Positions 41,280-42,970 of a DNA stretch of 64,000 nucleotides are shown here, in pieces (the first letter of the stretch is position 1; every line of letters begins with the position of its first letter). The DNA comes from Methanococcoides methylutens MM1 (GTDB lineage Archaea; Halobacteriota; Methanosarcinia; Methanosarcinales; Methanosarcinaceae). The notes below the pieces were generated by a model that saw only the letters and a program-made list of their open reading frames with translations, was not told the origin of the DNA and did no database searches. The stretch spans positions 1,054,001 to 1,118,000 of the forward strand of contig NZ_CP009518.1 of NCBI RefSeq assembly GCF_000970325.1. The letters run 5' to 3'. Position numbers and translations under genes: made by a program.

Positions 41280-42182
41280 ATGGCACGAAACAAGTTCCCT
41301 GTTCACACAACATTAAGTTCTGACGCTGTTAAGATACTTGAAAGGTATGAAAAGGAACTTGGAGCCAAGAACCTTGTACTTGAAAAGGCGCTGATGTCCC
41401 TTGACAGTAGCAAGTTCAAATCCAAGATCGATACGAACAATATAGACAAAGCTATTAAAAGGATCAATACCGGTGTAGCAGGTCTTGACGACATGCTCGA
41501 AGGCGGGGTTCCCGAGGGATTCTCTGTTGTAGTCACCGGTCCGCCGGGAACAGGTAAGACCACGCTTTGCATGCAGTTCCTGATGGAAGGTGTCAGGAAC
41601 GATGAGAAATGCCTCTTTTTCTCCTTTGAAGAAAGGATACAGCAACTGATACAGCATTTCATGCGTTTTGGCTGGGATATCGGCAAACACATTGATGATG
41701 GCTACCTTGAGATATTTGGGATGTCACCACTGTCATTTGAAGAGATCGGCGAGATCATTGATGCATACAAGCCAAAGAGGATCGTTTTTGATTCCCTGAA
41801 CATGGTTACCGATCCGTCAGAGTTCAGGAAATCCCTGTCGTGGCGTACATTGCATAAGCAGCTTAAGGCAAAGAACATCACTTCATTCCTTATTACTGAA
41901 AAAGAGCATGGTATTGAGACAAAGTCATATGATACATATGATTTCCTGGGTGATGGTATTATCTTCCTTGACCAGATTCAGGCAAATGAGGTGGAGCCAA
42001 ACCTTACACCTGTGATGGCTGTCCGGAAGATGAGAGCTACACGCGTGGATACTTCGCCACAGCCTTTCAGATTCACTGACAAGGGTATTTCAAAGTACAG
42101 GACGGTAAACCTGACAGCCAGCAAACTTCAGGAAAGAATGAACATGCACCATAGTGCATCTTCACATGAACCAGGATATTAA
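41280..42182 (+). CDS. KaiC/RecA-superfamily ATPase with N-terminal ribbon-helix-helix-like segment
   Basis: 300 residues. Walker A 'VVTGPPGTGKTTLCMQFL', the glutamate pair 'FFSFEERIQQLIQHF' and Walker B-like 'RIVFDSLNMVTD' identify a single KaiC-like (RadA-related) domain. Residues 1-45 before it ('KFPVHTTLSSDAVKILERY') resemble a short ribbon-helix-helix DNA-binding unit. Archaeal single-domain KaiC proteins often act in signalling or motility; this one is not near archaellum genes. Its 3' end overlaps the converging DUF1614 gene by 21 bases. Confidence 0.83.
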   Translation: MARNKFPVHTTLSSDAVKILERYEKELGAKNLVLEKALMSLDSSKFKSKIDTNNIDKAIKRINTGVAGLDDMLEGGVPEGFSVVVTGPPGTGKTTLCMQFLMEGVRNDEKCLFFSFEERIQQLIQHFMRFGWDIGKHIDDGYLEIFGMSPLSFEEIGEIIDAYKPKRIVFDSLNMVTDPSEFRKSLSWRTLHKQLKAKNITSFLITEKEHGIETKSYDTYDFLGDGIIFLDQIQANEVEPNLTPVMAVRKMRATRVDTSPQPFRFTDKGISKYRTVNLTASKLQERMNMHHSASSHEPGY

Positions 42183-42821
42183 AGTTGCAACAACGGTTGT
42201 TACATAAATTGCCTTAAAGCTTCCAACCCCGCCAAGGTTGATGAAAGCACTTCCATTATTTTCCCTGTCCACCATAAGGAGACCTGTGAGGTTTCCTAGA
42301 AGGATTCCTCCAATACCGGCTACGAAGGTCACAGCCGCAGCGTTCTCAGGTGCGAATATTAATGCGAAGGGAACTGCTATCAGTCCTATGTAATCAGGCA
42401 TGACCACGCCGATACCATTGACAAAATCTGAGAGTAGCGTTGCAGCTACAATCATGATCAGCATGATCTCAAGTCCGACGAAATCAGGTTGGAATACGAT
42501 GAGGAACAGCATCATAATAAAAGGAATTATGAACCCGCCAAGGTTGAGGGTTACAACTGTATTGAATGCCAGTTTCATGCTGGATGAGACGTCCTTTACA
42601 AGAGGCACGGAATATATCTCTTCCAGTATCATTGCATCCCTCTCAAGGGTTTGTGGTTTCCTTGACTTGAAAGAGCTTACAGGTATCTCAATGTTAGCGC
42701 CAACAAGCATGAGAACAAGCAGGATGAACAACGGATAAGAGGGTATTATCCCCAGTGATAGTTCCTACTGGAAGAACAGGACCGCCATGGGTATAAGCAT
42801 TATTCCAAAGATCAAAAACAT
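42162..42821 (-). CDS. DUF1614-like membrane protein interrupted by in-frame UAG (putative pyrrolysine)
   Basis: Reading from ATG 42821 gives MFLIFGIMLIPMAVLFFQ, then TAG, then ELSLGIIPSYPLFILL and so on in the same frame to TAA, 219 residues if UAG is read. The part before the TAG is a good membrane helix of the kind DUF1614 proteins have at their N-terminus, and the part after continues the family (about five more helices, 'VMPDYIGLIAVPFALIFAP', 'AGIGGILLGNLTGLLMVD'). A TATA box stands 24 bases before the ATG. In Methanosarcinaceae UAG is decoded as pyrrolysine. The alternative is a pseudogene, or a shorter protein starting at TTG 42731. Confidence 0.7.
42765..42767 (-). other. In-frame UAG codon
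   Basis: TAG on the - strand, codon 19 of the DUF1614-like gene. Frame is the same on both sides, so there is no frameshift at the site. Confidence 0.85.
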
Positions 42822-42837
42822 CCGAATTTCTGATTTA

Positions 42838-42845
42838 TTTATATA
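42838..42845 (-). promoter_or_regulatory. TATA box of the DUF1614-like gene
   Basis: TATATAAA on the - strand, 24 bases before ATG 42821. This spacing would place the RNA start at the ATG (leaderless). It supports transcription of the full frame including the UAG. Confidence 0.55.
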
Positions 42846-42970
42846 GCCTCTCATTGTTCTCATTAACAAGAGCTCGTTTTTAGTTATTAAATATTTCTAA
42901 TGAAGATCGAATTGAGAGGCTGAAAAGCTAGGGGATTAAAGCTTACAATCCGGTCAAGGATCAGTAAGCT

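Follow-up and report, generated by a model that had tools for sequence, protein, structure and literature searches.

An in-frame amber codon of recent origin, very probably read as pyrrolysine, in a DUF1614 membrane-protein gene of Methanococcoides methylutens

A DUF1614 membrane-protein gene on the minus strand of the window, i.e. the whole stretch of 64,000 nucleotides of Methanococcoides methylutens MM1 DNA that was analysed, carries an in-frame amber codon that, to judge from comparative sequence analysis, is very probably decoded as pyrrolysine (Pyl). The data directly support the codon itself and its recent origin, show that the gene evolves under purifying selection and that pyl genes are present, and reveal almost no termination at TAG over the third of the genome that was sampled. 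The most likely reading is a neutral replacement of glutamine by Pyl that entails no special switch. Hereafter, G000 denotes the genome carrying the gene under study and G001-G010 its ten congeners.

Results

Extent and start of the DUF1614 gene

The gene and its principal codons were delimited as follows (window positions):

42162-42854, minus strand: DUF1614 (PF07758) membrane-protein gene of 230 codons, with UAG as residue 30, defined by translation with TAG read as O, the Pfam match and an alignment of 17 homologues
42852-42854, minus strand: start codon ATG of MRGYINKSEIRM, a start kept in homologues
42765-42767, minus strand: in-frame TAG, codon 30, where the ten congeners encode Gln (CAA/CAG) or Lys (AAA)
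42164-42162, minus strand: stop codon TGA

A hydrophobic segment upstream of the TAG and DUF1614 sequence downstream of it lie in a single frame, which confirms the arrangement described in the earlier note on this DNA. The downstream part matches PF07758 over profile positions 1-171 (8.4e-33, 114 bits, against a curated Pfam cut-off of 23.9 bits) and hence belongs to the DUF1614 family. All 17 aligned homologues are one open protein across the UAG position, with near-equal length and start, and residues M1, R2, R11, L20, P22, A24 and L26 of the N-terminal segment are invariant among them. The MRGYINKSEIRM start is common to 10/10 congeners, with small changes (MRGH in one), and takes the form MRxY in further genera of this family; at locus L045, the open frame starts exactly at the corresponding Met, after a TGA.

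The start is thus ATG 42854, so that UAG becomes codon 30 and the sequence previously taken for a TATA box falls within the coding sequence. The earlier note had assumed a leaderless start at ATG 42821, served by a TATA box at 42838-42845, had numbered the UAG as residue 19 and had ended the gene at a TAA. That start and that box are ruled out by the conserved coding sequence upstream, ATG 42821 encoding the internal Met of 'RMFLIFG'; the residue number shifts with the start, and the stop codon is a TGA.

A sequence search of the PDB returned no chain related to DUF1614, and no confident fold match was obtained (best E = 3.2). A search on the function of DUF1614 gave no paper naming the family within the literature collection covered.

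Promoter region and neighbouring gene

The features flanking or overlapping the 5' and 3' ends of the gene are:

42838-42845, minus strand: TATATAAA, the former 'TATA box', which corresponds to codons Tyr-Ile-Asn inside the gene; string not conserved
42880-42899, minus strand: promoter-like A/T box TAGAAATATTTAATAACTAA, likely the TATA region, conserved at a fixed distance from the ATG
41280-42182, plus strand: convergent KaiC/RecA-like ATPase gene, taken from the ORF list, with the family assigned by eye from its Walker motif

The TATATAAA string is lost in 9/10 congeners (eight with an ATC isoleucine codon and one with CAT for TAT), and the protein is conserved there. The TAGAAATATTTAATAACTAA box (42899-42880) lies 26-45 bases upstream of ATG 42854, is identical or near-identical in 11/11 Methanococcoides genomes and is the better promoter candidate, its function being putative. 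At their 3' ends, the DUF1614 gene and the convergent ATPase gene share 21 bases (42162-42182).

Origin and position of the amber codon

The residues aligned with the UAG, which the earlier note had proposed to compare, are Gln or Lys in every congener compared. The counterpart of codon 30 is CAA in G008, the nearest species (97% protein identity), CAG in G001, G004, G005, G006 and G007, and AAA in G002, G003, G009 and G010. With a sense codon at this place in every congener (10/10), the TAG is private to G000 and is accounted for by one C-to-T transition, on the G000 branch, from an ancestral CAG.

Q, K, M, G, S or E is found in this column among the 17 homologues, and this variability indicates that codon 30 is no conserved catalytic position. 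In an AlphaFold model computed with Lys at residue 30 (mean pLDDT 83.9), this residue is found just beyond helix 7-28; Pyl would accordingly occupy a variable position just past helix 1. In being lineage-specific and in a column that varies, the TAG follows the pattern of neutral acquisition exemplified by Thg1, which is discussed below.

Selection on the gene

The DUF1614 gene is under purifying selection, as the comparison of G000 with G008 yielded a dN of 0.012 and a dS of 0.225 (dN/dS about 0.05). On the G000 branch, a hand count polarised by the other congeners gave, besides the TAG, approximately 9 synonymous versus 2 nonsynonymous changes, which departs from a neutral 3:1 (binomial p = 1.3e-4). 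The 29 codons before the TAG differ from those of G008 by one synonymous change. Part of the purifying selection may predate the TAG; the codon may have arisen too recently for later selection to leave a visible trace.

Pyrrolysine machinery

The G000 genome contains pylS with an adjoining tRNA-Pyl gene (anticodon CUA), pylC and pylB; a neighbouring ORF (301613-302392) occupies the place expected of pylD and is a candidate on that ground. An in-frame UAG flanked by homologous coding sequence and the pyl machinery are thus present in the same genome. Two mtbB matches in G000 have one internal TAG each, and two mtmB genes carry a TAG that is kept in G008. The genome also encodes one full-length aRF1, so that some termination at UAG is possible; in M. 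acetivorans, an introduced amber codon showed an apparent 20-30% readthrough (PMC2933860).

Genome-wide use of TAG

Stop-codon use was surveyed in a sample of approximately 780 kb, about one third of the 2.39-Mb single-contig G000 genome, with a home-made gene caller based on simple codon usage, which provided approximate counts. Among the 348 genes in 400 kb around the window, 176 end in TGA, 165 in TAA and 7 in TAG; the window itself has 59 predicted genes and no TAG end. A second segment of 380 kb contains 351 genes with 4 TAG ends, 3 of them followed by coding extensions. The pooled 699 predicted genes therefore comprise 365 TGA, 323 TAA and 11 TAG ends, and an in-frame coding extension follows 10/11 TAG ends versus 47/688 (about 7%) TAA/TGA ends (Fisher p = 6e-11). 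As 10 of the 11 run on as coding sequence, UAG would nearly always be a sense codon in G000. In a 100-kb sample of G013, which belongs to another genus, TAG is an ordinary stop, used by 7/65 genes with a median of 4 residues to the next stop.

Further TAG-containing genes and TAG-ended ORFs are (contig C1 of G000):

903010-903801, 1136125-1136628, 1263192-1263614, about 1263789-1266359 and 1293143-1293580 (L052, L063, L070, L071): ordinary genes with in-frame TAGs
1666882-1667376, 1768801-1769367 and 1771491-1772102: upstream pieces of three more TAG-ended ORFs with long coding extensions

All seven TAG ends in the 400 kb continue in frame as coding sequence, and the genes concerned are the two mtmB genes and those for quinolinate phosphoribosyltransferase, methyladenine glycosylase, a histidine kinase, a MarR regulator and a small membrane protein, the latter five functions being those read at the first group of loci. 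In the methyladenine glycosylase gene, the PF03352 match spans the TAG codon. When these seven sites and that of DUF1614 were compared with G008, four had Lys AAG or Gln CAG/CAA, the two mtmB sites had TAG and two were unaligned; the three genes other than DUF1614 with a sense codon have Lys AAG or Gln CAG, one step from TAG. The DUF1614 gene is thus one of about a dozen in-frame TAG cases in the 780-kb sample.

By eye, the three further ORFs may include a gene for a cytochrome c assembly protein and another for a GAF/PAS sensor protein. In G016, from another genus, a DUF1614 paralogue (L047) carries an in-frame TAG elsewhere in its sequence, around 'VRDSOIKVFG'.

Discussion

Proposed explanation

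The explanation that we hold to be highly probable is that an ordinary DUF1614 gene gained its amber codon through one transition, from CAG to TAG, on the lineage of the G000 species, and that the pylTSBCD machinery would translate it as Pyl, like TAG in other genes, because UAG hardly serves to terminate translation in G000. The functional product would be the complete protein of 230 residues, with Pyl30 immediately past helix 1, in which the change from Gln at residue 30 would be tolerated or neutral. We infer Pyl insertion into the DUF1614 protein, the efficiency of this insertion and its neutrality from the combined data. The earlier proposal that UAG is read through as Pyl in a gene unrelated to methylamines is well supported: homologues beginning after the UAG, or a genome lacking pylT and pylS, were named as evidence against it, but the homologues begin before the UAG, and pylS, pylT, pylC and pylB are present along with the ORF in the pylD position.

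Alternatives

The following feature bears on how far UAG has become a sense codon:

G000:C1:303489-304529, minus strand (L117): pylB, ending in TAG

UAG might be a full Pyl sense codon in G000, with ambers drifting freely and the pylB TAG as a rare exception, possibly a feedback point that would add 42 residues across the pylC start. This reading is unlikely. The 42-residue frame behind the pylB TAG overlaps the start of pylC and scores as non-coding, and pylB also ends in TAG in M. mazei, M. acetivorans and M. burtonii, where it is taken as a stop (PMC2933860). The ORF at 1699260-1699637 likewise ends at a TAG, beyond which the frame stays open for just 7 residues. These two TAG-ended genes and the presence of aRF1 suggest that UAG is perhaps not purely a sense codon and that its reassignment may be incomplete. 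Of note, the length of PylB might, through the pylB TAG, depend on the supply of Pyl.

A recent nonsense mutation that has just turned the strain's gene into a pseudogene, or alternatively a sequencing error at the TAG, is improbable. The TAG does arise by a single private C-to-T change, and a scan of genome contigs with the DUF1614 protein returned M. vulcani only and no second strain of the species; with one genome of the species compared, a sequencing error or a strain polymorphism is conceivable. However, the gene has no other lesion, its dN/dS is low with the G000 branch included, the genome has the Pyl machinery, and coding sequence extends beyond the TAG in nearly all ORFs that end there.

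The earlier note had also considered a two-form gene, with a short product on termination and a long one on readthrough. In the version weighed here, termination would release a 29-residue membrane peptide and readthrough the full protein, and Pyl supply would set the balance, whereby the cell would sense its methylamine status. The presence of aRF1, the dependence of Pyl supply on the pyl genes and the single hydrophobic helix (residues 7-28) that the short product would hold are compatible with it. Conservation of the stop and its signals among relatives, by which programmed two-form readthrough is recognised, was not found: the TAG is missing from 10/10 congeners, which speaks against a conserved two-form design, and RNA structure after the codon is not significant, with no signal for a PYLIS-like element (z = 0.35). 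In addition, such TAGs occur in many unrelated genes. A private change in a variable column, shared in kind with some ten other sampled genes, gives no support to a gene-specific feature, and we consider the two-form design very improbable.

Least credible is a restart of translation after the UAG (TTG 42731 or ATG 42710) to give a protein without helix 1: the listed ORF after the TAG begins at TTG 42731 and the Pfam domain lies wholly downstream of the UAG, but the N-terminal segment with its invariant residues is present in 17/17 homologues, and inspection by eye revealed no Shine-Dalgarno-like sequence before 42731.

Under the preferred reading, translation of the private amber as Pyl, the one-step CAG-to-TAG change in a single species illustrates how a former stop would drift into ordinary genes once its use in termination is nearly gone. 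Standard gene calling truncates such in-frame TAG genes in Methanococcoides.

Comparison with known systems

In the methylamine methyltransferases MtmB, MtbB and MttB, the UAG is conserved and Pyl is catalytic. The DUF1614 gene resembles them in having an in-frame UAG that would be read as Pyl by the same machinery, and differs in that its TAG is private and its column variable. In a proteomics study in Science in 2025, Kivenson and co-workers reportedly found that certain archaea, including Methanococcoides, read all TAG codons as Pyl. G000 is akin to these 'Pyl code' archaea, with TAG almost absent as a terminator and in-frame TAGs in ordinary genes, but its pylB, and perhaps one other gene, still has TAG at the apparent end.

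The closest precedent is the tRNA-His guanylyltransferase Thg1 of Methanosarcina acetivorans, which gained Pyl by neutral evolution, as summarised in PMC2933860, citing Heinemann et al. 2009. According to that account, the Thg1 amber is confined to a single species and lacking in relatives, as is the DUF1614 TAG, and it is translated as Pyl yet dispensable for activity. Unlike Thg1, DUF1614 is a membrane protein in Methanococcoides, and its Pyl is a prediction from sequence. An earlier computational survey reported many in-frame UAG candidates in Methanosarcina (PMC1242214), and DUF1614 adds a membrane protein to the pyrrolysine candidates outside methylamine metabolism.
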